Positions 8,404-36,072 are shown, counted from the stretch's first letter. The stretch: 38,782 bases of DNA from an uncultured Ruminococcus sp. (GCA_902797885.1 CADBUP010000104.1:1-38782); one strand, 5' to 3'. The notes: generated by a model not told the origin, from the letters alone. Program-made: numbers and translations.

Positions 8404-8433
8404 TTGTTTATTTATGATGAAATAAGATATAAT
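8404..8433 (+). promoter_or_regulatory. Promoter of the ABC transporter and surface-enzyme operon
   Basis: TTGTTT (8404-8409) is followed after 18 bases by a perfect TATAAT (8428-8433), about 40 bases before the start codon at 8474 and just after the terminator of the sensory operon. This is the likely target of the response regulator. A direct operator sequence is not evident. Confidence 0.6.
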
Positions 8434-8473
8434 TATAGTATAAATTAAACAATAAATTAAGGAGTTGAAAAGT

Positions 8474-9871
8474 ATGAAAAAGGCATTGTGCATAACGCTT
8501 GCGGCGATAATAGGCTGTTCGGTGTTTGCCGGATGTAATTCAACAAAGAAGTCGGCGGACGCCGAGAACGGAGATAAGATTAATCTTCCTATAGGCGCGT
8601 GGGTACGAAAGGACGAAAACCCAACGGCTTATGAACAGTCGCTTAAAAATGTTGAGGAGTTCGAGAAGCAGAATCCCCAGTATAAGATAGAACCGGTTGA
8701 GTGGTCCTATGACTTATCGACGTTTTTGCCAAAGGCGGCGGCGGGCGAGCTTCCTATCTGTTATGATGTGGCGTTTACCGAGGTTAAGAGAATTGTGAGC
8801 TCGGGCTATGCCGCGGATGTGACCAAGTATCTTAAGGAATACGGGTATGAGGACAATATTAAAAAAGAAGTGTGGGACTTGCTTACATATGACGGAAAAA
8901 GGTCATTCTTCCCGACCCGTACATATATAGAATCGCTGTTTATAAACAAAAACCTCTTTAAACAGGCGGGACTTGTGAATGAGGACGGAAGCGTGAAGAT
9001 TCCTCAGACCTATGATGAAATGATTGAGTATGCGGGAATAATCAAACAAAAAACCGGAAAGTACGGCTATGCGATTCCCACCACAAACCGTGAAGGCGGC
9101 TGGGCTTTTATGAACATCGCATGGTCATACGGAACAGAGTTTATGAAGCAGGATGAGAACGGAAAGTGGAAGGCGACGTTTGACTCACCCGAGTGTGCCG
9201 AGGCGCTTAATGTATTAAAGCGTGCGAAATTTGAATATGATGCCGTTCCGCCCAATGTTTTGTTGAATCCGTCGGAGCTCGGTAAGTTATTCGCCAGCGA
9301 TCAGCTTGCTATGTACATAATTCCGCCTCCACAGAGCGATCTCTTTAAAACCTATGGTATGAACCCTGATGATTTGGTTATTGCAAAGACCCCGGCGGGA
9401 AGCAAGAACAGATGTACCCTGCTCGGCGGTGCGCTTTTGGCGTTTGCCTCAGGATATACCGATGAACAGTATGAAGGTGCGTTTAAGTGGCAGGAATTTA
9501 TAGGAAACGGAACCAAGCTCAAAGACGGAAGTGAGCAGAAGCTGGAACAGGATTATCAGACCCAGAAGAATGAGAACCTGATGATCGGCGTTCCGCAGTT
9601 CACATTCTGGAAGGATGATGTAGAGCGCATAAAGAAGGACAGAGAGCTTCAGCAAAAATATGCGACAGTTAATCTTGATAATGTAAAGGATTTTGTCGAT
9701 ACCACAGGGGTTACCATCAAGCCCGAGGAGCCGACAAATTGTCAGCAGTTATATGAGGTTCTTGACACGTGTATTCAAAAGGCATATGAATCAAAGGATT
9801 CCGATATAAACAAGATCCTTAAAGAGAGCTGTGAATTCTTCCAGAAAAATTATTTGGATAAATCCAATTAA
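8474..9871 (+). CDS. Sugar ABC transporter substrate-binding lipoprotein
   Basis: A 465-residue extracellular solute-binding protein of the family-1 (MalE-like, CUT1) type. The N-terminus MKKALCITLAAIIG is hydrophobic and ends in a lipobox VFAGC with the lipidated Cys21, so it should be a lipoprotein on the outer face of the membrane. The mature part has the usual two-lobed profile, with segments such as LPKAAAGELPICYDVAF, SLFINKNLFKQAGL and IPQTYDEMIEYAGIIKQKTGKYG. The ATG at 8474 is preferred over an upstream TTG at 8465 because AAGGAG lies nine bases before it. It is the first gene after promoter 8404-8433 and is followed by two permease genes. It probably binds oligosaccharides released by the secreted enzymes of this locus; the ligand is unknown. 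Confidence 0.92.
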   Translation: MKKALCITLAAIIGCSVFAGCNSTKKSADAENGDKINLPIGAWVRKDENPTAYEQSLKNVEEFEKQNPQYKIEPVEWSYDLSTFLPKAAAGELPICYDVAFTEVKRIVSSGYAADVTKYLKEYGYEDNIKKEVWDLLTYDGKRSFFPTRTYIESLFINKNLFKQAGLVNEDGSVKIPQTYDEMIEYAGIIKQKTGKYGYAIPTTNREGGWAFMNIAWSYGTEFMKQDENGKWKATFDSPECAEALNVLKRAKFEYDAVPPNVLLNPSELGKLFASDQLAMYIIPPPQSDLFKTYGMNPDDLVIAKTPAGSKNRCTLLGGALLAFASGYTDEQYEGAFKWQEFIGNGTKLKDGSEQKLEQDYQTQKNENLMIGVPQFTFWKDDVERIKKDRELQQKYATVNLDNVKDFVDTTGVTIKPEEPTNCQQLYEVLDTCIQKAYESKDSDINKILKESCEFFQKNYLDKSN

Positions 9872-9892
9872 AACTAAGTAAAGATTATTTAT

Positions 9893-9927
9893 ACAAAATG
9901 TGGCAGTAACCAAATGTCGCATTTTGT
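9893..9927 (+). repeat. Intercistronic hairpin between binding-protein and permease genes
   Basis: ACAAAATGTGGCA (9893-9905) pairs with TGTCGCATTTTGT (9915-9927) to form a 13-bp stem with two G-U pairs and a 9-base loop. No T tract follows, so full termination is unlikely. Hairpins at this spot commonly protect the binding-protein message and keep its level above that of the permeases; that role is inferred here. Confidence 0.65.
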
Positions 9928-9962
9928 GCTTTAAACGGTAAAATTAAACGGAGGGATATTAA

Positions 9963-10895
9963 ATGACAAGAAGAAATGCGGCTAAGGCAACAGACACCGC
10001 CGCTCTTAAAAGACATAAATTAAAACAGGAATTTTTGTCGGATTTCGGGGCGTGGATGCTTATGCTTCCGTCTTTATTGGCGATGGTTATATTTTCGCTT
10101 CGTCCGTTATGGATGAGTATGGTATATTCGACATTTGAAATGCACGGGTTTGAGCCGGTGAGATTTATAGGACTTGCAAATTTCAAGAGCGTTATAGGAG
10201 ATTTGCTGTTTAACAAGGCCTTGTTAAATACAGTAAAATATGTGTTTTGGTCATTGATTATAGGCTTTTTGCCGCCGATAATTTTAGCAATATTATTAAA
10301 TGAAGTAACCGTTTTTAAAGGCGGATTTAGATTTTTAACCTATTTTCCTACAATTGTTCCCGGGATGGTAGCTTCACTTCTTTTTGTGTTTTTGTATTAT
10401 CCCGACAGCAGCGGGCTTTTAAATATGCTCCTCGGTATGATTGGAGTTGAGCCGAAAATTTGGCTTGATAATAAAAATCTGACCATAATGCTGATAATTG
10501 TTTCGGCGTCGTGGACGGGAATAGGCGGAACGGCGCTCTATTATCTCGCCGCACTTCAAGGAGTAAACCGCGATCTTTATGAGGCGGCGATGATAGACGG
10601 AGCGGGAATTTTTACCCGATTAAGAAAGATAATGCTTCCGCAGCTTGTTCCGGTTTTTATGCTGTTTTTGGTAAGGCAGATGATAGCTGTGTTCGGAATA
10701 ATGCAGGAACCGCTTGTTATGACCGGCGGCGGACCGGATAACGCTTCCTTGTCTATTGGACTGCTCACTTACCAGTATACATTTACATACGGATATACGG
10801 ATAAGGGCCTTGCGCTTGGCGTTATACAGTTCCTGCTCGGACTTGTGATGACTGTCTTCTATATATTCTTAGACAGAAAATTGAATAAAGATTGA
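9963..10895 (+). CDS. Sugar ABC transporter permease, first subunit (CUT1, MalF/UgpA-like)
   Basis: A 310-residue integral membrane protein with about six hydrophobic helices, starting with FGAWMLMLPSLLAMVIFSL near residue 30. The cytoplasmic EAA loop is clear (YEAAMIDGAGIFTRLRKIMLP, Glu207), where the ATPase subunit docks. A conserved MTGGGP segment lies further on. The start has GGAGG about seven bases upstream. It pairs with the second permease, whose gene begins 10 bases downstream, to form the membrane pore for sugars delivered by the lipoprotein at 8474. No ATPase gene is present in the window. In Firmicutes such importers commonly use a shared MsmX-type ATPase encoded elsewhere. Confidence 0.93.
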   Translation: MTRRNAAKATDTAALKRHKLKQEFLSDFGAWMLMLPSLLAMVIFSLRPLWMSMVYSTFEMHGFEPVRFIGLANFKSVIGDLLFNKALLNTVKYVFWSLIIGFLPPIILAILLNEVTVFKGGFRFLTYFPTIVPGMVASLLFVFLYYPDSSGLLNMLLGMIGVEPKIWLDNKNLTIMLIIVSASWTGIGGTALYYLAALQGVNRDLYEAAMIDGAGIFTRLRKIMLPQLVPVFMLFLVRQMIAVFGIMQEPLVMTGGGPDNASLSIGLLTYQYTFTYGYTDKGLALGVIQFLLGLVMTVFYIFLDRKLNKD

Positions 10896-10905
10896 GGGTG
10901 AAGAT

Positions 10906-11793
10906 TTGAAGATTAAAGAAAAAAATATAACCGGTGTTGTCGGTTATACCGAATTAAAAAAGCCATCGGTAAGGATTTATCACTTCCTTATTGCGGCTGT
11001 ACTCGTATTACATATAGTGGTATTTTTACTGCCCTTACTGTGGCTTATTCTGTCCGCGTTTAAAAGCACAAAGGAGTTTTTACAGATTCCGCCCACAATT
11101 TTTCCGAAAAAATTTCACTGGGAATATATACCTAAGGTGTGGAATAGGTGCAAATTCGGCATTGCTTACCTGAATACAGGAATAATCGCGGCGGGAGGCT
11201 GTGTGTTTAATATAGTGTTTAACGGCCTTACCGGATATGTTTTGGCGCATTTAAGACCGAGGGGATCAAAGCTGGTTAACACCCTGATATTTTGGATGAT
11301 GCTTCTGCCGGGGGGAATGAGTACCGTTCCTTTGTATATGACTTATACCAACTTCCCGATACTTCATATATCGTTGGTTAACACCTTTTGGCCGTTCTGG
11401 CTTCCGGCGATGTTTAATTGCTTTAACATATTGTTATTCAAGAGCTTTTTTAACGGAATATCCAAAACGTACATTGAGGCTGCCAGAATTGACGGCTGTG
11501 GAAATTTAAAAGCATTCATAAAGATAATCCTTCCGCTGAGCAAGCCGATAGTAATGACTCAGGCGGTGTTCAGCGTAACGGGAAGCTTAAACGATTTCTT
11601 TTGGCCGCTGCTGATTTTGACAGATGATAAGCTAAAACCTATTGCTCTTAAACTATATGCGCTTAAGGGAATGATGACACAGAACGAGTACCTGCTGGCA
11701 ATGCTCATTGTTACATTTATAGCGGCAATTATCTTTCTTATGTTCCAAAAATACATTGTACAAGGTATAAGTCTGGGAGGTATTAAAGAATGA
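10906..11793 (+). CDS. Sugar ABC transporter permease, second subunit (CUT1, MalG/UgpE-like)
   Basis: A 295-residue membrane protein with about six helices and an EAA loop (YIEAARIDGCGNLKAFIKIILP, Glu191), followed by a typical second-subunit ending (FQKYIVQGISLGGIKE). The only plausible start is a TTG at 10906, six bases after GAGGGTG; the first in-frame ATG would remove the first membrane helices. The N-terminus LLPLLWLILSAFKSTKEF is the usual first helix and periplasmic-side motif of this subunit. Its stop codon overlaps the start of the following secreted glycosidase by four bases (ATGA), tying import and extracellular hydrolysis into one translational unit. Confidence 0.93.
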   Translation: MKIKEKNITGVVGYTELKKPSVRIYHFLIAAVLVLHIVVFLLPLLWLILSAFKSTKEFLQIPPTIFPKKFHWEYIPKVWNRCKFGIAYLNTGIIAAGGCVFNIVFNGLTGYVLAHLRPRGSKLVNTLIFWMMLLPGGMSTVPLYMTYTNFPILHISLVNTFWPFWLPAMFNCFNILLFKSFFNGISKTYIEAARIDGCGNLKAFIKIILPLSKPIVMTQAVFSVTGSLNDFFWPLLILTDDKLKPIALKLYALKGMMTQNEYLLAMLIVTFIAAIIFLMFQKYIVQGISLGGIKE

Positions 11794-14700
11794 AAAAATT
11801 TTTATACAGAATATTCGAAACGGTATTTATATTTATATTTATATTTCAAAGTACGTGTATTTGTGCCGAAACCGGAGAAACAGCCGTATCAACGGTGAAT
11901 CCCGCCGAGATAAGCTATACGGTCGGCGGAAAGTCAGAAGGTCTGAGAGGGTACTTCCCGTCGGGAGTAAGAATGACGGAAAAAACCTTGCAGGGAAAGC
12001 AGGTATATACTCTTGAGGCAAAGGGAACGGATGATAAAAAGACAATGTATTTCAGCGTAGACGATCAAAAGGTTAATAGGGAAGTTTTAAACGGAAACGG
12101 CGTTGAAATCACGGTAGAATACCTTGACAGCGGAAGCGGAATCCTGACGCTTGTGTACGATGAGGTGTTTGACGAAATAGAGGACGGAAGCTATGAAGGC
12201 GTGAAAAGATGGGAAGATCCTATTCAAGGTAAGTACGGCGGGTTTGTTGATTTAGAGGACAGCAAGCTCTGGAAGACGCATACCTTCTATATTCGTGACC
12301 CTAAATTTCTGAAACGTCTGCCGAATAATTCTGATTTTTATTTTTCGATTAACAATCCTTACAGCGGAAATTCTTCCGATGATGTTTCGATAGCTTCGGT
12401 AAGTGTAAAACTTATGGATACCAAGAGCCCTGCCAGAGTATTTTCTACCACCGGAGAGGTAGGAAACATTTTCTACAGCAATGAAGAAGTGAAGTTTAAT
12501 ACGGATATAATAAGCACGGTTAATTATAATTTCAGCGGTGAGGTTGTATTTTCGGCGCTTAATATAAATGATGCGGCAACAAGGTTTGATAAAACAATAG
12601 AGCCTATGCGTCTGGAACGCGACGGCACGCTTGATAAAAAGTATATTTTATCACAAAAACGTGAGACCTTAACATTGAACGCAGGGGAAACAATTAATAG
12701 GACTGTAACTTTTGACGACTTGAATTGGTTTGGATGTATGACGTATCGGGTCGAGCTTATAGATGATAAAAACGGAATATACACCGTGTATGACAAGTCG
12801 TTTTCGAGAGTGCCGAGAGCAAAGGGGGAGCCGTTAAACCAGAATTTAGGTATGTCCATGCATTATTTCGGAGACGCGTCCGAGAACAGCGCATATGCCA
12901 GAAACGGCTTTGAACTTTTGGACAGATGCGGAATCAGCTGGATTCGCGGCAATGTAATGTGGCATTATACCGAACCGAAAAAAGGTCAGTACAAAATGTA
13001 TAAGGGCACGGAGAATTTCTTTAAAATCAATAAAGAAGAGTACGGCGGAAGGTTTCATATGTATCCCATAATGGATGGGGGAAACCATAATTTGGGGTCA
13101 AACGGAGAATTTGAGTATAAAAATTTTTCAGATAAAAATGCAACAGACGCTTTCGGAGAATTTGTAAAAGCATACGCCGATCTCACCAAAGAATATAATA
13201 TTGATACGTTTGAAATAATCAACGAACCCAATCTTAATGTGTTAACGCCGAAAATGTATGCCGGTCTTTTGAAATCCGTAAACGAAAAGCTTAAGCCTTA
13301 TTATCCTAAGGCGAAGGTTGCGGGTCCTGCTGTGGCGGAGGTTCCGGTAGACGCCGATATTGAGTACATCCCACAGCTGTTTAAATTCGGCGGACTTGAT
13401 GACCTCGATATTGTTTCGGTTCATCCGTATAACTGGCGTTTTTCTCCCGAATTTAACGGAAATATTGAAAGATTGAAAAAGCTTAAACAGCTATGCGAAC
13501 AGTACGGAAAGCCGAATATTGAAATTTGGGCAACAGAAACGGGATTTCCGACGGCAAGCAACAATCCGAATATACGTGTACCCGGAAACGATACGGGCGT
13601 ACTCGGCCAGGCAGAGTGGATGGTAAGGACATTTATCATGAATTATGCCGAAAAGACAATGAATAAGATGTTTATATATACCATGCATGATGGAGTAGAC
13701 CGCTCAAACAGCGAAGCAAGATTCGGTATTACCGTGGGAGGTGAAAACCAATACGAGCCATATGCGGCAAAGCCCGCTCTTGTTGCCGTTTCAAATGCAA
13801 GCAGACTTCTTGATAATGCAGAATTAAAAGAAAAAATCGAGGTCGGAAACAGAGAAGAGCTTGCATATTTGTTTAAGCGCGAGGGCAAGGAAGATATTAT
13901 CGCTTTGTGGTCGACCAAGGAGAAAGCTCAGCTTGCGTTAGACCTCGGCGTATCGGAAATAACCGTATGCGATATGTATGGAAACGAATCTAAAAGATAT
14001 TCCGAAAACGGGGTATATGAGTTTGTTCTTGATGGACAGCAAACATATCTGACAGGCAAGTTTAAGAATTTTAAAAAGGTTGATTCCGGACTAAGCTATG
14101 ACACAGGTTTGGTGTATAATGCTGTTCCCGACGATACATATGATTTTGAGATTTCGAATAACAGCGGCTTATCCCTTACGGCTAAGACAGAAGGAATAGG
14201 AAATATAAGCGTGGTTAAGCCCGTTGAGTTCGATGAAGCCGGTAAGGGAAAGGGCAGCTTTATGCTGAACAAAGGAAATAATTCAGAGATTGTTGTCAAG
14301 CTGTATAACGGGGATAAGCTATATACCGAGGTTTCATTTGTGGTCAAACCGACAGACCGGCTGACTATTGAAGTTGAAAAGTGCGAGCCATATAACAGCA
14401 GCAGTCTAAACAGATGGGCTGTTACACTTCTGATTACAAATAACGGCGTTGCATCAGATGTTTCGGGATATATAAAGCTTCAGTCTCCGGAAAGCGTTGC
14501 GGCAAACCTTTCGGATATACAGGTAGGAGCTATTCCGCCCGGAAAACAGCGAAGGGTTACCTTCTATCTGCCCGAGATGAACAAGAAGTATAAGGAAAAT
14601 CTTGCGGGTATATTCTACATGTCGGACGGAAATGAGCAGTATATTTCGTTCGGAGTCGATTTTACGCTGGCGTTGTATACGGATAAGCCGCCGGTTATAG

Positions 14701-15296
14701 ACGGTAAAATAGAAGAAAACGAGTGGACGCGCGGAGCGTGGCTCTATCTTGATAAAGCAACTCAGATACGACAGCTTGAGGATTGGAAAGGTCCGGAGGA
14801 CTTAAGCGGACGTGTAAATATTATGTGGGATAACGAAAACCTCTATCTTGCTTCGGTAGTACAGGACGACATTTTCGGAGAAACAGAGGAGAGACCGGGA
14901 ATGGTATGGGCAAATGACAGCCTGCAGATTGCGCTTAAATGTGATATGACAACCGAGATGTACGCATTTAACGAGATGGCAATTTCTAAATTAAAGGGAG
15001 AAACCATAATATACAGAAACAAGGCGGAAGGAACGGCTACGCTCGGATTGGTCACTGACTTTAAAGGAAAAATAGTAAGAGATGAGATGAAAAAGACTAC
15101 AACATATGAAGTGGTAATACCGTGGACAGAGCTTACCACCTCGGATTTTAAAATAAATCCGGGAATCAGCATCGCTTTTTCAATGCTGATAAATGATAAT
15201 GATGGAAAGGGCCGCCGGGGATGGATTGAGCTTACGCCCGGTATTGGATACGAAAAAGATCCGAGTTTATTTACCAATATAAAACTTATAAAATAA
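11790..15296 (+). CDS. Secreted multidomain GH39-like glycosidase with C-terminal CBM9
   Basis: This 1168-residue protein has a signal peptide (about residues 1-26). Layout: beta-sandwich (30-215), Ig-like domain (215-345, GNIFYSNEEVKF), TIM barrel (350-665), post-barrel beta domain (YAAKPALVAVSNASRLL, then MYGNES), two more strand-rich segments (760-970) and a C-terminal CBM9-type domain (975-1168). The CBM9 signature is IDGKIEENEWTRGAW, then IMWDNENLYLASVVQDD and WANDSLQIAL. The predicted acid/base is Glu479 (INEPN) and the nucleophile Glu583 (WATETG). The core is paralogous to the proteins at 1847 and 16915. It should cut a glycan outside the cell, with CBM9 (known in xylanases to bind chain ends) holding the substrate. 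Translation is coupled to the upstream permease gene by an ATGA overlap. It has no SLH or sortase signal of its own. Confidence 0.8.
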   Translation: MKKFLYRIFETVFIFIFIFQSTCICAETGETAVSTVNPAEISYTVGGKSEGLRGYFPSGVRMTEKTLQGKQVYTLEAKGTDDKKTMYFSVDDQKVNREVLNGNGVEITVEYLDSGSGILTLVYDEVFDEIEDGSYEGVKRWEDPIQGKYGGFVDLEDSKLWKTHTFYIRDPKFLKRLPNNSDFYFSINNPYSGNSSDDVSIASVSVKLMDTKSPARVFSTTGEVGNIFYSNEEVKFNTDIISTVNYNFSGEVVFSALNINDAATRFDKTIEPMRLERDGTLDKKYILSQKRETLTLNAGETINRTVTFDDLNWFGCMTYRVELIDDKNGIYTVYDKSFSRVPRAKGEPLNQNLGMSMHYFGDASENSAYARNGFELLDRCGISWIRGNVMWHYTEPKKGQYKMYKGTENFFKINKEEYGGRFHMYPIMDGGNHNLGSNGEFEYKNFSDKNATDAFGEFVKAYADLTKEYNIDTFEIINEPNLNVLTPKMYAGLLKSVNEKLKPYYPKAKVAGPAVAEVPVDADIEYIPQLFKFGGLDDLDIVSVHPYNWRFSPEFNGNIERLKKLKQLCEQYGKPNIEIWATETGFPTASNNPNIRVPGNDTGVLGQAEWMVRTFIMNYAEKTMNKMFIYTMHDGVDRSNSEARFGITVGGENQYEPYAAKPALVAVSNASRLLDNAELKEKIEVGNREELAYLFKREGKEDIIALWSTKEKAQLALDLGVSEITVCDMYGNESKRYSENGVYEFVLDGQQTYLTGKFKNFKKVDSGLSYDTGLVYNAVPDDTYDFEISNNSGLSLTAKTEGIGNISVVKPVEFDEAGKGKGSFMLNKGNNSEIVVKLYNGDKLYTEVSFVVKPTDRLTIEVEKCEPYNSSSLNRWAVTLLITNNGVASDVSGYIKLQSPESVAANLSDIQVGAIPPGKQRRVTFYLPEMNKKYKENLAGIFYMSDGNEQYISFGVDFTLALYTDKPPVIDGKIEENEWTRGAWLYLDKATQIRQLEDWKGPEDLSGRVNIMWDNENLYLASVVQDDIFGETEERPGMVWANDSLQIALKCDMTTEMYAFNEMAISKLKGETIIYRNKAEGTATLGLVTDFKGKIVRDEMKKTTTYEVVIPWTELTTSDFKINPGISIAFSMLINDNDGKGRRGWIELTPGIGYEKDPSLFTNIKLIK

Positions 15297-15311
15297 GAGG
15301 AGATGACATAT

Positions 15312-16877: not shown

Positions 16878-16914
16878 TTCAAACGAATAGCGGAATGTTT
16901 ACGGAGGTGAGCGT

Positions 16915-20871: not shown

Positions 20872-20930
20872 TTAAAGCGACTGTAGATAATGGTCGTGAT
20901 TGAATAAAACAGTAGGAGGAATGAGCATAG

Positions 20931-22652: not shown

Positions 22653-22680
22653 GCAAAATGTTACGGAGGGTTTAACAATA

Positions 22681-25365: not shown

Positions 25366-25381
25366 GAGGAGAAGCAGCAAA

Positions 25382-26704: not shown

Positions 26705-26719
26705 AAAGATGTCCGAAAT

Positions 26720-26758
26720 GAGGGTGTATTTGGCACGTTTGTGTCCTTGTATGCCCTC
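26720..26758 (+). repeat. Weak hairpin, possible transcript end
   Basis: GAGGGTGTAT (26720-26729) can pair with GTATGCCCTC (26749-26758) using three G-U pairs, with a 19-base loop and no T tract. It may mark the 3' end of the SLH transcript, but this is weak. Confidence 0.3.
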
Positions 26759-26775
26759 TGACCAATTGTTATAAT
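26747..26775 (+). promoter_or_regulatory. Putative promoter of the LamG/SGNH esterase operon
   Basis: TTGTAT (26747-26752) and a perfect TATAAT (26770-26775) are separated by 17 bases, giving a leader of about 90 bases before the gene at 26874. Within the leader, CGGCAT (26794-26799) and ATGCCG (26846-26851) could close a long stem-loop, but the pairing is short. Confidence 0.5.
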
Positions 26776-26873
26776 AATGTTATAAATTAAGCGCGGCATA
26801 TGTGATAAATGCATAAACATTAAATGCTTTTATTATAAATTTAAGATGCCGTGAAATAAGAGGAGGAAATATA

Positions 26874-29141
26874 ATGTTAAAAAAAGGGTTTAAAAAACTA
26901 ATGTCGTGCTTCCTGTCGGTATGCACAGCGGTAACACTTTTGTCGGGAATCTCTGTTCCGGCCTATGCGGATGAGACGAATTCTAACGTTCTTTTTGATG
27001 ATGATTTTAGTGCCGATAAACCGAAAGTAGGTGTAAGAGGCTTCCAGGGATGGCCTACTACTGATGCAAATAAGTTTAAAGTTGAAAATAATGAGCTTTT
27101 AGCTATAGGCGATATCAAGGTATTTATGGGATTTGGCAGTACTCTTGACGATAACTCAAAAAACTTTAAGACGGATGACGGCGTTCTGCGTATCAAATTT
27201 GATATGAAGATAAAAAGCTATCCGAATGACGACATATCTAAATTCCTTCTTGTCGGCGATGATAATTCAGTTTATCCTTTTATGCAGTTATTGAGTAACG
27301 GCACCATTTTGCGGGCGCCCGCAACAGATGGCAATTGGCAGGGTGATTTTAACGCCGCGACAGAAAAGATAGATACAACGGGTGTCAACAATTTTGAGAT
27401 TCTTGTCGACCTGAAGAATGATATAATAGGATACAAAATAACAAATACGAACGGGGAAATTCAGTTTATAAAACAAGATATCTCAAAAGTACCTTGGTGG
27501 ACTGAAAATAACAAGAAAAAACTTACGAGCATAAAAGGTTTTTGCTTAATAGCAGGCGGAACAAGCGAAATATATTATGATAATGCATATGCCGAAAAAG
27601 TGCCGGGTAAGTCTCTTAATGATCTTATGTTCACAGGCGTTTATGATATTCCGGCATTTGTCGACTTTGACAGCTTCATCGCGGGCAAGGACGGTATGGC
27701 TAACCTCCCGACATTGGATAATTCTTCAAATATCGCTCATAAGGGTAATATAGATATTTCGTTTAATCAGACATATAATACCGGAAGGGTTTACATCGGA
27801 TTTGATATAACCGAAGAACTTGCAAAGGAAGAATTTAGCACAAAAGATAAGAAAAGAAATTTTAATGTAAAAGTCGGCAACGGAGCAGAGTATCGTATAA
27901 TGGGAGAATGTTATCAACGTTTCGGACTTGCGACAAACACAACCGATTGGCAATACTTTGGAGGACATGTTGCTTACGACTGCGGACCGGCAATAACTCA
28001 CCGCGCCGATATGATTCTTGATTTTGATAAAGGAATGATAATCGGCTACTTTGACGGTAAAAAGCTGAGCGAGGTCTCGATGGAGCTAGCTGGCGGAGAA
28101 AATGACTGGTCGGCATTAAAAGAAAAAGGAGTTAAAGGATTCGAAAGCAGCTCTGAGAATGGTGAAGATTACTACATTGATAACTTAAAAGTCACACACT
28201 TTGACGAGGGTCTTACCGCTCTTCCGACTGTTGACCAAACTAATAAAACAGTAGATATCGAGTTCGGAACATCTCTTACCGAGGACGAAATTACAGCGCT
28301 CACTAACAAGGATAATTGGAAGGTTGATAATAGCATAATGGTAACCGAAGCGAAAAAGCTCACTCAAAGCAGGATTCGCCTTACCGTAAGCGATATAGCG
28401 GATAATACGGTTTATACTCTTACCGTTCCTAAGGTTACCGACGCTGACGGAAATGAGCAGGCTATATCGGGCGTGGCGGAGACTAAATTAAACTGCGATA
28501 CGATTAAGTATTCTGTATCGAAAAAAATAAAGAACATTACGCTCACCGGAGTTGACGGCAAGTCAATGTTCCTTTCAGACGCCGAGCCCGGCGCAAAGGT
28601 GATCAGCGTTGACGCTGACTTTACCCCGTCAAGCATTACCTTGAAAAAAGGTGTAACGGAGGTAGCCAAAGCTGAAAACGGAAATATTATGACACTTGAT
28701 AACTTCCTTGCGGCGGGCCACTACACCCTCGATGTAGACGGCTTTGTATATGACTTCACCGTAGGCGAGGGAAGCTATACCATTTCGGACTATGGCTTTG
28801 TTAAGGTTAATGAGGATAACACCGAAAGCGCCCTTACAGATGAAAAGGCGATGTTAAACGGCGGAAACTATAAGTTTAAAGTTTCGGCTAAGAACACAAC
28901 GGGCGACAGCTCTAAGTCTTTATACGCGATTGTTGCATATTACGGCGAGAATAATAAGATGCTCGGAGTGGAAAAGACCGAGGTCAAAAATGCAGAAGGA
29001 AACGTTGACGGCTATGCTATGCAGAGTGGAGATGTATCGTTTAGCGTTCCGGAGGGCGGAAGTGTAAAGTGCGTCAAGGCGTTTATGTGGGACAGCCTTA
29101 ATACAATAAAGCCGATAGTGAAGAGTGTAGAGGTTAAATAA
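26874..29141 (+). CDS. Large secreted non-catalytic LamG-like / Ig-like protein
   Basis: A 755-residue secreted protein with GAGGAGG nine bases before the ATG and a signal peptide (1-33, ending VPAYA). Two LamG-like sandwiches follow: residues 38-245 (FDDDFSADKPKVGVRG ... EIYYDNAYAEKV) and 258-450 (ending DYYIDNLKVTHFDEG). An SbsA-type Ig-like domain (455-545) and a second Ig-like region come next. The C-terminal 100 residues carry the recurring module (AIVAYYGENNKML ... FMWDSLNTIKPI). The layout is an extended form of the protein at 15312. No catalytic motif is apparent. It appears to be the first gene of a new transcript that continues into three esterases, so it may be a substrate-binding partner for them. 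Function is inferred from context only. Confidence 0.65.
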   Translation: MLKKGFKKLMSCFLSVCTAVTLLSGISVPAYADETNSNVLFDDDFSADKPKVGVRGFQGWPTTDANKFKVENNELLAIGDIKVFMGFGSTLDDNSKNFKTDDGVLRIKFDMKIKSYPNDDISKFLLVGDDNSVYPFMQLLSNGTILRAPATDGNWQGDFNAATEKIDTTGVNNFEILVDLKNDIIGYKITNTNGEIQFIKQDISKVPWWTENNKKKLTSIKGFCLIAGGTSEIYYDNAYAEKVPGKSLNDLMFTGVYDIPAFVDFDSFIAGKDGMANLPTLDNSSNIAHKGNIDISFNQTYNTGRVYIGFDITEELAKEEFSTKDKKRNFNVKVGNGAEYRIMGECYQRFGLATNTTDWQYFGGHVAYDCGPAITHRADMILDFDKGMIIGYFDGKKLSEVSMELAGGENDWSALKEKGVKGFESSSENGEDYYIDNLKVTHFDEGLTALPTVDQTNKTVDIEFGTSLTEDEITALTNKDNWKVDNSIMVTEAKKLTQSRIRLTVSDIADNTVYTLTVPKVTDADGNEQAISGVAETKLNCDTIKYSVSKKIKNITLTGVDGKSMFLSDAEPGAKVISVDADFTPSSITLKKGVTEVAKAENGNIMTLDNFLAAGHYTLDVDGFVYDFTVGEGSYTISDYGFVKVNEDNTESALTDEKAMLNGGNYKFKVSAKNTTGDSSKSLYAIVAYYGENNKMLGVEKTEVKNAEGNVDGYAMQSGDVSFSVPEGGSVKCVKAFMWDSLNTIKPIVKSVEVK

Positions 29142-29157
29142 TTAACGGGAGAAAAAA

Positions 29158-31263
29158 ATGATCAGACGATTTTTAAGTGTGCTTGCCGCATTTACCGTTA
29201 TCGTTTCGGCGGTAACCGCGGTACAGGCAGAAGAACCGAATACAAAATCAACTAAAATATATGACGATATGGTTTATGTAGAAGGAAGGCTTCCCGCTTA
29301 TCAGCTTGATAAGGATGAGAGCATAACGCTTATGATGGTTAAAAAAGGCGTGGACTTAGATACACCCGAAGGCTTTGCCAAAGGAGTGGGATATATCGAT
29401 GAGATATATCCCGACTTCGACGGCGGATACAAGCTTATGTTTGAATTCGACGGTGAAGTTTCGGATTATTCACTTATGATGAAGCTGGGAAGCAATGATG
29501 TAACAAACTCGGTTATCGAGGCGGCTTCCTTTAAAGACATTATAAACGTGGATATTTATGACGGTGCGTCGAGCGGACTTGTTGAGTTTTGTACAAAAAC
29601 CGTTAATAAGTATAAAGACCAAAAGAATTGTTCAATAGTCTTCGCGGTATACGATAAGGACGGCATGCTCTGTGACACGGTAATATCGGACAAAGCACTG
29701 ACGGGAACCGAAAATTCATTCAGGACATATCTTAAAAGACCTGAGAACATGTCGGCGGCTAAGGCGTTTGTCTTTAACAGTATGACCGATATTAAGCCGC
29801 TGACCGAGAACTTCGTCAAAGGCGAAGATAAAAGACTTTCGCCCGTCACGGCGAGATATATCGGCGGCGAAAACTATAATACATCAAAGTCAAATGGCTT
29901 TATACGCAGCGTAAACGATTTAAACGAATACGGCGATAAGCAAGAGGGGAATCCGTACGGCGCGGAGTTGACCAAAACGGGCGGATTTATTGCGTTTGAC
30001 GATGTCGATATGACGGATATGAACGCGATCCAGATGTATGCCGGCGCAAGCTCCGAGTCGTTTAAGCTTGGAATTTATGCCGATGAGATTAAAACCGAGA
30101 ACAAAATCGGAGAATATGTTATAAACGGATATTCAAACAATCATTACATTGCCGTTTACGGAAGTGCGGATCTTTCTAAGATGCTGAGCGGAAGGCACAC
30201 GCTTTATATAAAGAGTGAAGAACAAAGCGGAAGCTGCAAGATTAAGTTTATCCGCCTGACCGATAAGGCCGATAAGAAGATAAAGCCCGACGTGATAAGC
30301 AATACTGACGGAAATATTAAATACACCGGAAGCTGGAGTGTAAGTGGAAATGAAAATGAAAATAAATATAAAGAATCCGGTGAGAAAAATGCCTCAGCAG
30401 AGCTTAAATTCAGCGGAACTGCCGTGGATATAAACGGCGTTATCGGAAGTGACTGCGGCTATGCGGACGTATATATCGACGGTGTGTTTGATAAAACTTT
30501 AAACCTGTATAACAAAAAAACGCTTGCCCGCTGTGTTTATACCAGGGCGAATCTGTCGGACGGCGAGCATACGGTTATGATAAAAAAGATAACGGGCGAA
30601 AAGCTTTATCTTGACGGGTTTAAGGTTTATCATTCGCCGATACGCGTGGTATGTATAGGCGACAGTATTACCCAGGGAACAGGCTCAACCGAACAGGGGA
30701 GTTTCTCGTGGCCGGCACAGCTTCAAAAGCTTTTGGGAAGCGGATATGTTGTCTTTGATAACGCAAAGCACGGCTGTACCTTAGAATCATGGCAGGGTGA
30801 GTGGATGAAACAAAGCACAAGCCTTTTAAACGCGGATATTGTTATATGCGCTATCGGAACCAACGATTACTGCGGCGGCTGGGCGTCGTTTAATGCCGAA
30901 ACATATAAGAAAGATTATACAGATTTTATGAATATGATAAAGGGTTATAGCGAGGTTTCGCCGAGAATGTATATTTCAAAGCCGCCGCTCAGAGAAAAAA
31001 GCGTTGCGGAGGCAAAAGCTGTTGTATGGAAGATGTTTGACGAAATATCAAGCAAAAACAACTGGCCGATAGTTGATTTTTTAAGCTCGCTTTTGGACGA
31101 AGGTCAAAATTATACGGACGGTCTGCATTTAAACAACAGAGGATACGGAATTATGGCCGAGATAGCGAATTTCTCCCTTCCCTGTCCCGAGATAATGAAT
31201 AAGAAAAAGCTTGATTATGCAATTTCGGAATTAAATAAAAGAAACGCGGAGCTATCAGACTGA
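29158..31263 (+). CDS. Secreted multidomain SGNH/GDSL esterase, copy 1
   Basis: A 701-residue secreted enzyme. Layout: signal peptide (1-24), N-terminal sandwich-like module (about 35-125), recurring module (125-220, FVFNSMTDIKPL), CBM6-like module (235-375, FIAFDDVDM), small sandwich (380-490, GYADVYIDGVFDKTLNLY) and C-terminal SGNH hydrolase. The nucleophile is Ser503 in IGDSIT, the block III Asn is Asn569 in IGTND, and the Asp-His pair is Asp654 and His657 in DGLHLN, so all catalytic blocks are intact. SGNH enzymes with carbohydrate-binding modules usually remove acetyl or other acyl groups from polysaccharides, so a carbohydrate esterase is likely. It starts 16 bases after the LamG protein gene and is the first of three tandem paralogues. 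Confidence 0.85.
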   Translation: MIRRFLSVLAAFTVIVSAVTAVQAEEPNTKSTKIYDDMVYVEGRLPAYQLDKDESITLMMVKKGVDLDTPEGFAKGVGYIDEIYPDFDGGYKLMFEFDGEVSDYSLMMKLGSNDVTNSVIEAASFKDIINVDIYDGASSGLVEFCTKTVNKYKDQKNCSIVFAVYDKDGMLCDTVISDKALTGTENSFRTYLKRPENMSAAKAFVFNSMTDIKPLTENFVKGEDKRLSPVTARYIGGENYNTSKSNGFIRSVNDLNEYGDKQEGNPYGAELTKTGGFIAFDDVDMTDMNAIQMYAGASSESFKLGIYADEIKTENKIGEYVINGYSNNHYIAVYGSADLSKMLSGRHTLYIKSEEQSGSCKIKFIRLTDKADKKIKPDVISNTDGNIKYTGSWSVSGNENENKYKESGEKNASAELKFSGTAVDINGVIGSDCGYADVYIDGVFDKTLNLYNKKTLARCVYTRANLSDGEHTVMIKKITGEKLYLDGFKVYHSPIRVVCIGDSITQGTGSTEQGSFSWPAQLQKLLGSGYVVFDNAKHGCTLESWQGEWMKQSTSLLNADIVICAIGTNDYCGGWASFNAETYKKDYTDFMNMIKGYSEVSPRMYISKPPLREKSVAEAKAVVWKMFDEISSKNNWPIVDFLSSLLDEGQNYTDGLHLNNRGYGIMAEIANFSLPCPEIMNKKKLDYAISELNKRNAELSD

Positions 31264-31268
31264 GAGAG

Positions 31269-31286
31269 CGGCAATTAGCTTTGCCG
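31269..31286 (+). repeat. Small intercistronic hairpin between SGNH copies 1 and 2
   Basis: CGGCAA (31269-31274) pairs with TTGCCG (31281-31286) around a 6-base loop. No T tract follows. It may stabilise or tune the message. Confidence 0.35.
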
Positions 31287-31302
31287 GAAAAGGAGTAAGG
31301 AA

Positions 31303-33480
31303 ATGAAAAAGAGTTTTTATGGGATATTTTCGGGCATTGTTGCCGGTGTTATGATTGGTACGTTATCTGTTGCGGCTTCGGCTGAAGCCGCGGCAGATAA
31401 TAAAAGCGTTCAGGCGAGATATATTGAAAAAAGAGTGGTAGTGAGCGGACATATAGATCAGTCTGAGGCGCTTGAAAACAATATGCTTACAATATTGCTT
31501 TCGGATGAGAACAATAATATTGCATACATAAATGAAGCGGCTGTCGATGATTACGGCGACTATAAGCACAGCTTTGAATTTATGGGTGGAAATAATATTG
31601 ACAGCTATACTTTAAAGGTTAAGGCCGGTGAAACGGATGTCACCGAAACTGCGAAATCCATTGGGTGTTTTACCGATATGATTGAAGCCGACGCAGTGAA
31701 AAGCAATGAAAATGAGAATGGTTCGGTAGAAATCGGAGTTAAGCTTATAAACGATTATTATATGAACCGGGATTATACTATGTATGCGGCGGCATACAGC
31801 ACGGACAATACGCTGATAGACGTGAATGTATTTCCGAACAGCTTAAATTCATCGGACGGCATGATGAGAAAATTTCTTAAGCTGAATAATAACGGGGGCA
31901 AAAATATTTCCGAGGTCAGACTATACGTCTGGGATAAAGAGAACGGCATAAAGCCGCTCGGAAAGGTGTTTGTCTTCGGCGGAGATAATGCGGATAAAAT
32001 AAAGAACACCGCGGAAAAAACCGTGTACAAACGCATTGAAGCCGAAACGTTTTCAGAGGAGAATTCTAAAAATGTCAAAGCAGATGACAGAAGCTTCGGT
32101 GTTCAAAATAAAGAGTGTAAAAAAATGGATACCCATATGTGCTTTAAAGATGTAGACTTGGCAAATGTCAAATCTGTTATCGCGCTTGCTGACACAAACA
32201 GAGATAATGAATATCTTGAGTTCAGAATAGGCGGCCCGACAGGCGACCTCATCGGAAAGCTTCCGCTGGTGAACGGCGGTGGAAGCGCACATGACTCAGA
32301 CTTAAGCTATACTCTTACATATGCCGGAATTAAAGAAACAAGCGGTAAACACGACCTGTATATCGTTAGACCGGAGGGAAGCACGGCCAATTTTATACTT
32401 GAGCATTTTGTATTGTCTTCGGAGAGGCTTTCGGAAGACGGCGAGGACAGCAAGCCGTTTTATTCGAAGGAAAATGATATAAAGTTCAGCAACGATAATA
32501 AGACGGCCGAGTATTCGTTTTATGGAACGGGAATAGATTATATCACGAATCTTTCGAAGGATGCGGGACAGGTTGAAATTTTTATTGACGGAAAAAAAGA
32601 TAAAACGATAAATTTAAATAAGGATCAGGAACTTAAAGACCGTACTGTGTATACAAAGACGGGTCTTTCCAAATGGAATCACACGATAAAGATAGTAAGC
32701 GATAGAGCCATAACCGCAAACGATATTAAGTTTAAGGTTTATCAAAGACCGATTATTGTTGCTTGTATGGGTGACAGTATAACGGACGGCGTCGGCACGG
32801 CAAACCACATTTTTTCGTGGCCTGCACAGCTTCAGAAACGGCTCGGAACAGGGTATTATGTTGTTGACTGCGGTCACAACGGCTCGACCACCGAAGGAAT
32901 CTTTGTGTTTTCGCAGGGAAAGACCGCTCTTAAGCTTAATGCGGATATTTTCATAAACGCGCTTTATACAAATGACTCAGAAAATGTTTACGGAACTAAA
33001 GATGAAGTGAACAATGGCGGCAAAAAGTTTAAAGACACTTATCAAAGCGTAATGGGTAAGCTTAAAGGCTCGTCTCCCGATGCGCGGATGTATGTTGCTA
33101 TTCCGCCTTGCGGAAACACGAATGATGATTTTAAACCCTGGTGGGAGACAAAGAAAAAATGGACGGAAGAGCTTGCGGCTAAGAATAATTGGCCGGTAAT
33201 TGACTTTGATTATGTGCTTAAAGACCATCGTAACGATGGGGTTGCAGAGCGTGGCTTCTATTTTATAGATGTCGTTCATCCGTCGGAAAAGGGATATTCG
33301 TTTATGGCCGCCGCGGCAAAGATGAGCCTTCCTTGTCCCGAACTATTGGATTCAACGGCTCTTGATAATGAAATCAAGAGGCTTGACGCGTTAGACAGTT
33401 CTGATAAATATAATCACAGTCAACTTGAAAGTGAGCTTAACAGCTTAGATGAGTCGGGGAATCTGCCGGCAAATAACTGA
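31303..33480 (+). CDS. Secreted multidomain SGNH/GDSL esterase, copy 2 (variant block III)
   Basis: A 725-residue paralogue of the previous gene with the same order: signal peptide (1-28), N-terminal module (about 35-125, IAYINEAAVDDYGDY), recurring module (VWDKENGIKPL), CBM6-like module beginning RIEAETF (about 245-385), sandwich (QVEIFIDGKKDKTINL) and SGNH hydrolase. The nucleophile is Ser492 (MGDSIT), block III Asn is Asn557, and the Asp-His pair is Asp656 and His659 (DVVHPS). In block III the usual Gly before TND or YND is replaced, giving ALYTND; an active enzyme is still plausible because Ser, Asn, Asp and His remain. The C-terminus has an acidic, Ser-rich tail after the fold. Likely a carbohydrate esterase with altered acceptor specificity. 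Confidence 0.82.
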   Translation: MKKSFYGIFSGIVAGVMIGTLSVAASAEAAADNKSVQARYIEKRVVVSGHIDQSEALENNMLTILLSDENNNIAYINEAAVDDYGDYKHSFEFMGGNNIDSYTLKVKAGETDVTETAKSIGCFTDMIEADAVKSNENENGSVEIGVKLINDYYMNRDYTMYAAAYSTDNTLIDVNVFPNSLNSSDGMMRKFLKLNNNGGKNISEVRLYVWDKENGIKPLGKVFVFGGDNADKIKNTAEKTVYKRIEAETFSEENSKNVKADDRSFGVQNKECKKMDTHMCFKDVDLANVKSVIALADTNRDNEYLEFRIGGPTGDLIGKLPLVNGGGSAHDSDLSYTLTYAGIKETSGKHDLYIVRPEGSTANFILEHFVLSSERLSEDGEDSKPFYSKENDIKFSNDNKTAEYSFYGTGIDYITNLSKDAGQVEIFIDGKKDKTINLNKDQELKDRTVYTKTGLSKWNHTIKIVSDRAITANDIKFKVYQRPIIVACMGDSITDGVGTANHIFSWPAQLQKRLGTGYYVVDCGHNGSTTEGIFVFSQGKTALKLNADIFINALYTNDSENVYGTKDEVNNGGKKFKDTYQSVMGKLKGSSPDARMYVAIPPCGNTNDDFKPWWETKKKWTEELAAKNNWPVIDFDYVLKDHRNDGVAERGFYFIDVVHPSEKGYSFMAAAAKMSLPCPELLDSTALDNEIKRLDALDSSDKYNHSQLESELNSLDESGNLPANN

Positions 33481-33531
33481 TATAGCTGATTGTAAAATAA
33501 AAAAATCGAAAACTGTGGATAACTCATATAT

Positions 33532-33616
33532 CCCCCCGTCAGACGCTCGGCGAAAGCCTCCCTTGCCTAAAGAGAGTGGGACCGCCGAAGGCGGTGGAGG
33601 GATTCTGAGAAATTAA
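33532..33616 (+). repeat. Degenerate palindromic intergenic repeat element
   Basis: This GC-rich insert in an AT-rich gap contains the perfect hairpin ACCGCC-GAA-GGCGGT (33581-33595). It is flanked by a CCTCC/GGAGG pair and by an outer CAGA/TCTG pair. The pattern, especially the ACCGCC hairpin followed by GGAGGGATT, resembles a dispersed palindromic element I recall from Oscillospiraceae-type genomes. The stem CTCCCTT/AGAGAG is imperfect, so this copy looks degraded. It lies between esterase copies 2 and 3. Confidence 0.6.
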
Positions 33617-33635
33617 AAAAAGAGGAGAAAATGAA

Positions 33636-35756
33636 ATGTTTAAAAGAATTTGTTCGTTAACATTGGCTTTGGCTGTTATACTTCCGTTCGGCAACATATT
33701 TGCAGAGACATCGGGAACGAAAGTCGGCAATAACGTCAATATGTATTATGTCAGAGGTCAGCTTAAAGCAGATGAGCTAAGTTTTGGAGACAGACTGACG
33801 GTTCTTATGAAGGATAACCAAAATGATATTAAATATATAAATGAGACAGAAGTTAACCCCGACGGTTCGTATTCGCTTGCATTTGAATGTGAAAATGCAG
33901 ACGGTAACAATAATATATTGGTAAAAGCAGGGGACGCCGTTGTAAGCGACAGTACATGCTATGCCGGAACCTTTGAGGATATGATAGACACAAGCATAGT
34001 CAAAACCGCTGACGGTAAAAACATTAAAATCTTTGCTGAGGTCATAAATCCGTATCTGATGGAACAGAACTATACTATGCTTGCCGCCGAGTATGACATA
34101 AGCGGGAAATTAAAATCCGTTAAGACGAAGAATGAGAGCTTAGACGGAAAAAAATCCGATAACAGATATCTTTTCACATTTGAAACGGAGAATACAAGTC
34201 GAGTGGCTCTCATGGTGTTTGAAAGCTTAAGTAACATTGTTCCGCTTTGTAAGAGTTTTTCGGCAGATAATTTAAATAAAGTTCCGCTTGAAACAGACGT
34301 TTTTTATAACAGATACGAGGTTGAGGACTCGAAACACAATGACGGTTTTGTGGAAAATAATGATATGAACGCCGGACGGTATTTGACAAAAACGGATAAA
34401 AGCGGATACTTCGCGCTCGAAAATGTTGATATGACCGGCATAAGAACCGGCATAATAAACGCGGGTTCAACACTCGGAAACAGAAAGCTTGAAGTTAGGT
34501 TAGACAGTAAAAACGGGAAGAAAATAGGTGAGGTAACTTTAAATCCGACCGAAACACAGTTTACGTTTAAAACTACCGAGTTTAAGATTAATGCGGCTGA
34601 TGTGACAACCAAAAAAACGCACGATATTTATTTTGTGGATAACTCAAAGGACGTGGATTATACTGTTGATTTTGTTATTCTGACCAACGAGAAAACCTCA
34701 GAGGAATCAGGCGCAGGCGCGCCGACCTATGTGAATAATACGAATACGAATATTGTTTACACAGGCAAGTGGGAGAATAACACCAATAAGGGCAGTTTTT
34801 ATCAAAACGGTGACGCGGCTGTTCTGACAGGCGAAGGAAGTATAAAATATGATTTTTACGGTACCGGAATTGACTTAATTTGTGACGTAACGGCTTCAGA
34901 TTGTAATATCGATATTTATATTGACGGTATCAAAGAAAAAACTCAGAATCTTAAAAACCTCCTGAATTCGGGACAATCGGCGCCGGCCAGAACCGTTTTC
35001 ACCAAGACCGGGTTAAAGAGATGGAAGCATACAATAGAGATTAAATCTCAAAGCGGCGGAGTTACCTTTGACGCGTTTAAGGTTTATACAAGGCCTATAC
35101 GTGTTGTTTGCGTCGGTGACAGTATCACCGACGGCAAGAGAAAGCGTGTAGATATTAACGGGCCGAAAGACAGAGAGCTTTCGTGGCCTCATAGGATGAA
35201 TGAAATGCTCGGCGGCGGATATATGATATTTAACTGCGGCAAGGGCGGAATATGCGCGAATAATTATGACAATGCGGACGTTTATGTTTTTAAAACAGCT
35301 AAATCAGAGGACGCGGACGTTGTCATAAATGTATTAGGCTATAACGATTATTGGACAGAAGACTTTACTGTAGACAGCTTCAAAAAGAATTTTGTTGATA
35401 AAATGGATAGAATCGGAGAAACCTGTACCACGCCGCCGAGATTTTATATAGGCTTGACACCGTTCGGTAGGCAGGAAACAGCGGATCAGAAGAATCAAAT
35501 AGCCGGAGTGGCGACATTAAAGGCATTATCCTCCGAAAAGAATTGGCCTATTGTTGATTTTCTTGATTATATGGCGCCTTATCGGGATAACGGAAAGTAT
35601 TTCCCGGATGGCACACACCCGTATACGTATGAGGCGAACAATATGATGGCGGCTATTGCAGTAGGACAGTTACCCTGCGCCGAGCTGTGCAACGCGGAGG
35701 AACTTAAGAATTTAGTTAATAACTATTCTGAAACGGCGGAAGAACAGACAAAATAA
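33636..35756 (+). CDS. Secreted multidomain SGNH/GDSL esterase, copy 3
   Basis: A 706-residue third paralogue, separated from copy 2 by 155 bases that hold a palindromic repeat. An ATG at 33631 is out of frame; ATG 33636 has GAGGAG eight bases upstream. Layout: signal peptide (1-23, ending NIFA), N-terminal module (30-120, IKYINETEVNPDGSY), recurring module (FESLSNIVPL), CBM6-like module beginning NRYEVED (about 225-355), sandwich (CNIDIYIDGIKEKTQNL) and SGNH hydrolase. The nucleophile is Ser496 (VGDSIT), block III Asn570 (LGYND), and the Asp-His pair Asp658 and His661 (DGTHPY). An insertion after GDSIT (GKRKRVDINGPKDREL) distinguishes it and may reshape the active-site rim. It is the last gene of the secreted cluster. 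Confidence 0.85.
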   Translation: MFKRICSLTLALAVILPFGNIFAETSGTKVGNNVNMYYVRGQLKADELSFGDRLTVLMKDNQNDIKYINETEVNPDGSYSLAFECENADGNNNILVKAGDAVVSDSTCYAGTFEDMIDTSIVKTADGKNIKIFAEVINPYLMEQNYTMLAAEYDISGKLKSVKTKNESLDGKKSDNRYLFTFETENTSRVALMVFESLSNIVPLCKSFSADNLNKVPLETDVFYNRYEVEDSKHNDGFVENNDMNAGRYLTKTDKSGYFALENVDMTGIRTGIINAGSTLGNRKLEVRLDSKNGKKIGEVTLNPTETQFTFKTTEFKINAADVTTKKTHDIYFVDNSKDVDYTVDFVILTNEKTSEESGAGAPTYVNNTNTNIVYTGKWENNTNKGSFYQNGDAAVLTGEGSIKYDFYGTGIDLICDVTASDCNIDIYIDGIKEKTQNLKNLLNSGQSAPARTVFTKTGLKRWKHTIEIKSQSGGVTFDAFKVYTRPIRVVCVGDSITDGKRKRVDINGPKDRELSWPHRMNEMLGGGYMIFNCGKGGICANNYDNADVYVFKTAKSEDADVVINVLGYNDYWTEDFTVDSFKKNFVDKMDRIGETCTTPPRFYIGLTPFGRQETADQKNQIAGVATLKALSSEKNWPIVDFLDYMAPYRDNGKYFPDGTHPYTYEANNMMAAIAVGQLPCAELCNAEELKNLVNNYSETAEEQTK

Positions 35757-35957: not shown

Positions 35958-36072
35958 TATGATAGTATAATATAAAAAACCTGCTAAACAATATGCTCAT
36001 TTTATTGCAGTACGACTAAGAGTGTAGATGATAGAACCAATGCACATGGATGTTAAACAACTAAATAGGGAC

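Follow-up and report, generated by a model that had tools for sequence, protein, structure and literature searches.

We analyzed a 38,782-nt stretch of DNA from an uncultured Ruminococcus sp. (GCA_902797885.1, CADBUP010000104.1:1-38782), hereafter called the window, which carries on one strand an importer, secreted enzymes and three proteins with surface-layer homology (SLH) repeats, designated SLH-A, SLH-B and SLH-C. Comparison of gene sequences and gene order across genomes showed that SLH-A and SLH-B form a conserved two-gene cassette that is co-inherited and has been duplicated into many glycan operons. We propose, with a probability of about 0.6, that the locus is a Gram-positive polysaccharide utilization locus (gpPUL) whose surface part would be built on a locus-specific SLH-A/SLH-B (A-B) pair, with SLH-C as an optional third member. 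The SLH genes of the window are as follows.

20931-22652, + strand: SLH-A, 573 aa, three C-terminal SLH repeats (Pfam SLH, three matches)
21558-21932, + strand: HX module of SLH-A, ~125 aa, the exact stretch returned by the genome search
22681-25365, + strand: SLH-B, 894 aa, N-terminal SLH followed by ~560 aa of predicted small beta-barrel domains
25352-26704, + strand: SLH-C, 450 aa, N-terminal region of unknown type and C-terminal SLH (Pfam SLH)

The window belongs to a 2.58 Mb draft genome that is 98% complete (the own genome, below). Genes were called as the longest open reading frames (ORFs), and 20 window proteins were scanned with Pfam; the modules HX, X1, KPL, LamG1 and GH39L are defined by profiles built in this analysis, as distinct from Pfam. 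Note that the comparison genomes were mostly drafts, and that the gene tables of the own genome cover the SLH neighbourhoods. Loci (L), genomes (G) and contigs (C) are cited by our own numbers.

The own genome gave 129 SLH repeat matches, many of them in adjacent gene pairs of ~560 and ~900 aa. It encodes at least 16 SLH-B paralogs (counts of SLH-B per genome were taken from scored candidates and are lower bounds), whose C-terminal regions of 560 aa can be aligned over their full length at ~20% identity, and 13 of these 16 accompany an SLH-A, mostly in glycan operons. When the own genome and 60 neighbourhoods from relatives were pooled, 50 of 76 B loci had an SLH-A gene immediately before SLH-B in the same orientation, the median distance between the two being 11.5 bp; of the other genes in those regions, 26 of 866 had an SLH-A in this position. 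A gene for an enzyme, carbohydrate-binding module (CBM) or KPL protein (GH39-like, LamG, KPL, CBM9 or SGNH) was present within four genes of 44 of the 54 paired SLH-B genes, as against 3 of 21 unpaired ones. The neighbours of A-B pairs included GH10, GH2, rhamnosidase, GH42, CBM9, GDSL, two-component and ATP-binding cassette (ABC) genes.

The window SLH-A starts with a signal peptide, and the beta domain X1, HX (a helical module), a Gly/Ser linker and three canonical SLH repeats follow; this domain order is typical of SLH-A proteins. HX was detected in 40 of 1029 screened proteins (183 of which carry SLH), and all 40 were SLH-A proteins paired with an SLH-B; 15 B-paired SLH-A proteins were below the HX threshold. 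Since a survey that starts from SLH-B is biased, genomes were also searched with HX alone, and the presence of SLH-B was checked afterwards in 40 new loci. SLH-B was directly downstream in 16 of the first 20 and 19 of the next 20 loci (35/40 in total), and one of the four HX loci lacking a downstream SLH-B in the first batch ends at a contig end. In the whole-genome search, HX was matched ~90 times, in 17 of the 60 relatives and in the own genome, where all seven matches were B-paired; of 222 genera sampled from the class, 26 had the HX-bearing pair. HX matches were very dense in genome G002 (L175-L188) from the same genus, whose 2.9 Mb draft has 22 of them, mostly in A-B cassettes.

Fusions were also found. 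L213_2, from the one remaining locus of the second batch, is a single 1412-aa protein containing X1, HX, three SLH repeats and a whole SLH-B, and the junction lacks the signal peptide of SLH-B, which fits a true gene fusion better than a lost stop codon. L183_4, from the same genus, is a GH39-like enzyme fused to X1, HX and three SLH repeats, and an SLH-B directly follows it; other SLH-As have LamG or KPL modules at their N-terminus. By the usual logic of gene fusions, such proteins suggest that modules which the window encodes on chains of their own act at the site where SLH-A is.

The other genes of the window, to which those of other genomes were compared, are listed below.

162-1688, + strand: cytosolic GH39 protein (PF01229, 318.9 bits)
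1817-3883, + strand: cytosolic GH39-like enzyme with a 672-aa counterpart in genome G152 (56% identity)
4957-6510, + strand: AraC-type response regulator (Response_reg, HTH_18)
6548-8275, + strand: histidine kinase (His_kinase)
8465-9871, + strand: substrate-binding protein of a CUT1-type ABC importer (PF01547, SBP_bac_1)
9963-10895 and 10906-11793, + strand: two importer permeases (PF00528, BPD_transp_1, in both)
11790-15296, + strand: giant 1, 1168 aa, secreted, GH39-related, C-terminal CBM9 (CBM9_1, 5.7e-15)
15303-16877, + strand: secreted LamG/Big_5/KPL protein, 524 aa, no enzyme match (weak Pfam Big_5 and Laminin_G_3)
16915-20871, + strand: giant 2, 1318 aa, secreted, GH39-related, C-terminal KPL (weak PF00150/PF11790)
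26874-29141, + strand: secreted LamG/KPL protein, 755 aa (in-house profiles LamG1, LamG2 and KPL; no Pfam match)
29158-31263, 31303-33480 and 33636-35756, + strand: three secreted SGNH/GDSL esterase-like proteins (PF13472 in all)
36028-38780, + strand: GH65 protein (PF03632, 310.8 bits) and a HAD/beta-phosphoglucomutase-like gene (HAD)

A preliminary description, made from the window alone, had reported an importer, two giant enzymes, two LamG proteins, three SLH proteins and three SGNH esterases lying almost without gaps on one strand. This content and order were recovered, and the intergenic distances inside the block range from -14 to 169 bp. The start given there, 8404, precedes the first ORF (8465), and the locus also takes in upstream genes from 162. 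For the two proteins labelled LamG/Ig-like non-enzymes, the LamG matches are weak (E 0.006) and the second has no Pfam match; they were grouped by the in-house profiles.

In G152, which belongs to another family of the class, eight window genes are collinear at 31-56% identity. Specifically, the block contains the 672-aa GH39-like enzyme (56%), giant 1 (51%), the LamG protein (31%), giant 2 (36%), SLH-A (45%), SLH-B (42%), SLH-C (52%) and, as the last gene, a KPL protein that is 40% identical to the C-terminal 105 aa of the 755-aa LamG/KPL protein of the window, and the genes of a substrate-binding protein and two permeases lie beside it. The presence of this eight-gene copy in another family indicates that the window arrangement did not arise by chance. 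SGNH esterases and GH65 were not found in the G152 block and thus look accessory. G109 and G077, from one further genus, have the order importer, giant 1-like, SLH-A, SLH-B and short SLH-C, and an SLH-C ortholog of 52% identity (L198_2) likewise directly follows an SLH-B. The preliminary description had suggested looking for the same gene order in related genomes, and the run from giant 1 through LamG, giant 2, SLH-A and SLH-B to SLH-C in G152 answers to it. Together with the A-B pairs in glycan operons of relatives, this collinearity indicates that the SLH genes and the enzymes belong together, and the lack of co-occurrence that would have argued otherwise was not observed.

SLH-A and SLH-B were also found to be inherited together. 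In 49 of 89 A-B pairs, the locus with the best B match was also the locus with the best A match; where B identity was below 50%, the two best matches fell in the same locus in 39 of 77 cases, ~1% being expected. The window SLH-A and SLH-B are ~31% and ~27% identical to their best-scoring home paralogs, respectively, versus 45% and 42% to their counterparts in G152. A Mantel test of A versus B distances gave r = 0.26 (p = 0.001) overall, and the best-hit agreement was added because this test was equivocal within one genome.

We then considered how the pair might be attached to the cell. The window SLH-A carries the TRAE-type motifs ITREE, VTRQD and ATRAE at aa 422, 481 and 547, and at least two such motifs were present in 53 of 54 SLH-A segments. 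CsaB, which is needed for the pyruvylated wall polymer that is the known ligand of SLH domains, is present in the genome (TIGR03609, 279 bits), and the structures of SpaA-SLH and Sap have been solved with this pyruvylated ligand. SLH-A therefore has what identifies an anchor, namely three SLH repeats with TRAE-type motifs in a genome that encodes CsaB. Among paired SLH-B proteins, 47 of 54 segments carry only zero or one TRAE-type motif. In a predicted model of an ortholog of B0, one of the core SLH-B groups described below, the SLH part fits SpaA-SLH across three repeats with a Z of 19 (predicted local distance difference test score, pLDDT, 68.3). A structure search with the beta region of this model gave no PDB relative above noise, and the model matched the S-layer self-assembly domain weakly, at noise level (Z 7.0). 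DDB1 was considered as a relative of the beta region of SLH-B and discarded, as the Foldseek matches were of a low-TM repeat type.

Unpaired SLH-B genes mostly belong to three core groups, B0 (~990 aa), B1 (~1045 aa) and B2 (~950 aa), whose neighbours are constant and enzyme-poor. B0 (L023:6042-9014, orthologs L078-L110) is a core gene with 53-72% identity across the family; it is divergent from an N-terminal SLH protein, and in the small genome G038 it is the sole SLH-B among the matches listed. B0 may be a housekeeping surface-layer protein that gave rise to the copies in glycan loci. A scan of named records with one SLH-B sequence gave no match; with the B0 alignment, orthologs were found in uncultured 'Ruminococcus' RUG metagenome-assembled genomes, Ructibacterium gallinarum and an uncultured Monoglobus. 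Because the B0 orthologs come from these records, the source genome is a gut/rumen relative of Monoglobus.

In the model that we propose, SLH-A would be the firm anchor, its three canonical repeats binding the pyruvylated secondary wall polymer, for which CsaB is needed, and HX, which is confined to SLH-A proteins, would be the likely contact with SLH-B. SLH-B, in which an SLH trefoil whose motifs are mostly degenerate is joined to a row of small beta domains, would be a surface-layer-like partner. The two proteins may form a platform at the wall that retains the enzymes and captures glycan; the giants, the LamG/KPL proteins and the esterases would work alongside it, and the oligosaccharides would be handed to the ABC importer beside it. 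At some loci SLH-A itself carries the enzyme or a LamG module in one polypeptide; in the window these are chains of their own. The pair would thereby fill the organizational role that is marked by SusC/SusD in Bacteroidetes. Gene arrangement and fusions support the view that enzymes and anchors share a surface platform. A bolder version, in which A and B form a stable, locus-specific complex via HX that is the functional counterpart of SusC/SusD and, at each glycan locus, the constant surface core to which enzymes and glycan-binding proteins are added in trans, as in the window, or by fusion, is put forward only tentatively, as we consider it somewhat doubtful. If true, it would represent a previously undescribed organization of glycan foraging in Clostridia.

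The preliminary description had stressed a division of labour, in which the enzymes lack anchors and the SLH proteins lack enzymes. For the window this was correct: the enzymes have no SLH or dockerin match in Pfam and no C-terminal LPXTG-like motif, and no enzyme was recognized by Pfam in the three SLH proteins. However, as a general rule it fails in the sister loci L028_2, L116_3, L139_8 and L030_3, so that its strict form is local to this window. L028_2 and L116_3 are GH39L-CBM9-SLH chains with three SLH repeats that lie beside A-B pairs. L139_8 (L139:11096-18352), a 2418-aa protein in the A position, has two CBM96 modules, heparinase II/III-type lyase domains and three SLH repeats, and L030_3 (L030:7085-9712) of the own genome has 875 aa with an NAGPA phosphodiester glycosidase domain and three SLH repeats. 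A catalytic module and SLH on one chain, the arrangement of the Cel5I type, is thus seen in L028_2 and L139_8 and not in the window. As for other modes of attachment, the own genome gave no sortase match, so that sortase anchoring was not recognized.

The claim that the system is without cellulosome parts holds for the window (C104), in which no protein matched dockerin and no cohesin-bearing scaffoldin was detected, but not for the genome, where two cohesin and two dockerin matches occur elsewhere (dockerin on C24 and C56, cohesin on C56 and C123). On C56 (L009:8133-13650), B1 stands beside a 478-aa protein with cohesin and three SLH repeats and a 325-aa dockerin protein, and in G022 (L170:12064-14580) a neighbouring 838-aa ORF carries SLH, dockerin and cohesin matches on one chain. 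Judged from these sequences, a lineage that is not cellulosomal appears to have conserved one cohesin/dockerin pair beside B1.

Several observations weigh against a platform built on the A-B pair. The contacts of A with B, of A with enzymes and of B with enzymes are ones that we infer from gene sequences. Within the own genome, where the paralogs are saturated near 20% identity, the Mantel correlation is zero. Fusions of A with B and of an enzyme with A were each found once, in a draft assembly in both cases; the latter is truncated by a contig end, and its enzyme part has no Pfam match. The model of the window SLH-B, predicted with 23 B0 orthologs, is of low confidence (pLDDT 54.7). G022 and most of its genus lack HX, yet some B genes are present there, and HX proteins without an adjoining B occur in L180, L184 and L194. 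Furthermore, because B stands alone in core loci that have no glycan genes, its ancestral role was probably not glycan use.

An earlier reading was that the enzymes dock directly on the SLH proteins via KPL, X1 and LamG, as a cohesin/dockerin-free analogue of the cellulosome. The conserved operon with separate chains in G152 would agree with this, as would the presence of KPL in both enzymes and non-enzymes but usually not on SLH proteins (2/46 in the first set), the occurrence of X1 in both SLH-A and the window esterases, and the LamG, KPL and GH39L modules fused to SLH-A elsewhere. However, KPL, the leading candidate for a docking module, shares a chain with SLH in L133_3, L159_5, L186_3, L189_3 and one protein of L197, and since the two coexist in this way, KPL need not stand in for an anchor; loci whose enzyme bears its own SLH (L028, L116) still have A and B, and giant 1, one of the enzymes to be docked, gave no KPL match. 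We consider such docking unlikely. Alternatively, A and B might form a substrate-induced patch of surface layer that remodels or opens the wall, with the enzymes freely secreted or bound to glycan via CBM9, CBM6 and LamG. This would suit the three core SLH-B paralogs in constant, enzyme-poor loci, the conservation of B0 in the family and the fit of its SLH part to S-layer SLH structures, and giant 1 and two esterases do have glycan-binding modules of their own; SLH-As with an enzyme, LamG or lyase module, on the other hand, put glycan-active parts on the anchor, and the match of SLH-B to the S-layer self-assembly domain does not rise above noise. We consider a patch of this kind unlikely as well. 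In a genome so rich in SLH repeats some adjacency is expected, and the SLH genes could in principle lie there by chance or as operon passengers with no part in glycan use; such a reading is hardly credible in view of the frequency of SLH-A upstream of B compared with other genes, the collinearity across families, the co-inheritance and the fusions.

We next compared the proposed gpPUL with known systems. A gpPUL combines a degrading enzyme, a carbohydrate transporter and a transcriptional regulator in one locus, and in the published description no SusC/SusD counterpart was found in Roseburia and Eubacterium rectale and glycan binding by the CBMs of enzymes was suggested (Sheridan et al. 2016, PMC5320581). 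The window has all three minimum parts: a polysaccharide-degrading enzyme, predicted from the GH39 protein at 162-1688 and the giants that align to structure 5jvk; transport, from the SBP_bac_1 protein and two BPD_transp_1 permeases of the ABC importer (8465-11793); and regulation of the AraC/two-component type, from the regulator at 4957-6510 and the histidine kinase at 6548-8275. Unlike the gpPULs so described, it adds a dedicated SLH-A/SLH-B surface pair that recurs from locus to locus. As with SusC/SusD, two genes encode a locus-specific surface pair that recurs, as paralogs, across many glycan loci with which it is co-inherited. The likeness is one of organization only and no homology is claimed, as the pair consists of wall-anchored SLH proteins of a Gram-positive bacterium that imports by an ABC system, and no TonB-dependent transporter or SusD lipoprotein was matched by Pfam in the 20 window proteins.

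Anchoring of a modular glycoside hydrolase by SLH was described for Cel5I of Ruminiclostridium cellulolyticum (PMC4976890). The window shares with this type the SLH display of glycan-degrading machinery without dockerins, and its sister loci have enzyme-SLH chains; in contrast to it, the window encodes enzyme and SLH as different polypeptides, and the constant part is a non-enzymatic SLH pair. The SLH enzymes of Caldicellulosiruptor are a further SLH-anchored example. The cellulosome likewise displays several separately encoded enzymes at the surface; the window differs in having no dockerin or cohesin, the cohesin-SLH/dockerin pair being elsewhere, at a core SLH-B locus. For Monoglobus pectinilyticus, a related bacterium, Kim and colleagues in 2019 reportedly proposed that SLH surface proteins aid the degradation of polysaccharide (pectin), with stress on fusions of SLH and pectin enzymes. 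That proposal likewise links SLH surface proteins to polysaccharide use; it differs in that the unit here is the A-B pair, and SLH-A proteins with HX are lacking in G022 and in most members of its genus. To our knowledge, an A-B pair has not been described for M. pectinilyticus. A literature search found no paper joining Monoglobus and SLH and none describing the A-B pair; as its coverage was incomplete, the novelty of the pair is provisional.

The pair is of practical use as well. SusC/SusD marks the glycan loci of Bacteroidetes for finding and comparing them, whereas a marker of this kind was missing for Gram-positive loci; they can be sought by way of the SLH-A/SLH-B pair, for which HX is diagnostic. 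The pair also opens to experiment the question of how secreted enzymes and released sugars are held at the cell by clostridia that lack cellulosomes; the natural A-B and enzyme-A fusions are ready-made constructs for contact tests.

Regarding the enzymes, giant 1 aligns to 5jvk with E 1.3e-12, and its NEP and TE glutamates line up with the NEP and TE of that structure, so that both conserved Glu are accounted for; giant 2, which lies immediately upstream of SLH-A, aligns with E 2e-5. We take 5jvk to be a GH39 structure (its database record is titled 'Uncharacterized protein'), and both GH39-related giants are far from characterized members. The three SGNH proteins have X1-KPL N-termini and CBM6/CBM35-like or CE2_N-like middles, and the X1 module is common to them and SLH-A by the in-house profile.

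KPL is a module of ~75-80 aa ending in ...AF-W-S---IKP, which was found in 46 proteins of the first locus set and in six window proteins (16617-16814, 20632-20859, 28878-29120, 29593-29808, 31732-31962 and 34029-34253). In the 524-aa LamG protein it corresponds to aa 439-504. The KPL stretches of the window proteins gave no Pfam match at E 0.1. KPL had been considered as a substitute for SLH, as the two did not overlap in the first own-genome set, but they overlap in relatives (more chains with both were found in sets beyond the first), and the idea was rejected as a rule.

Scans for promoters and terminators gave many consensus matches that were near shuffle expectation or inside genes, and were set aside. 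Upstream of the importer, positions 3954-4964 encode a 336-aa membrane sensor-like protein whose gene overlaps that of the response regulator; it has no kinase domain match in Pfam and looks like a kinase-less sensor, the complete histidine kinase beginning at 6548. At the other end of the window, the GH65 and HAD genes follow a gap of 271 bp and possibly form a separate neighbouring unit.

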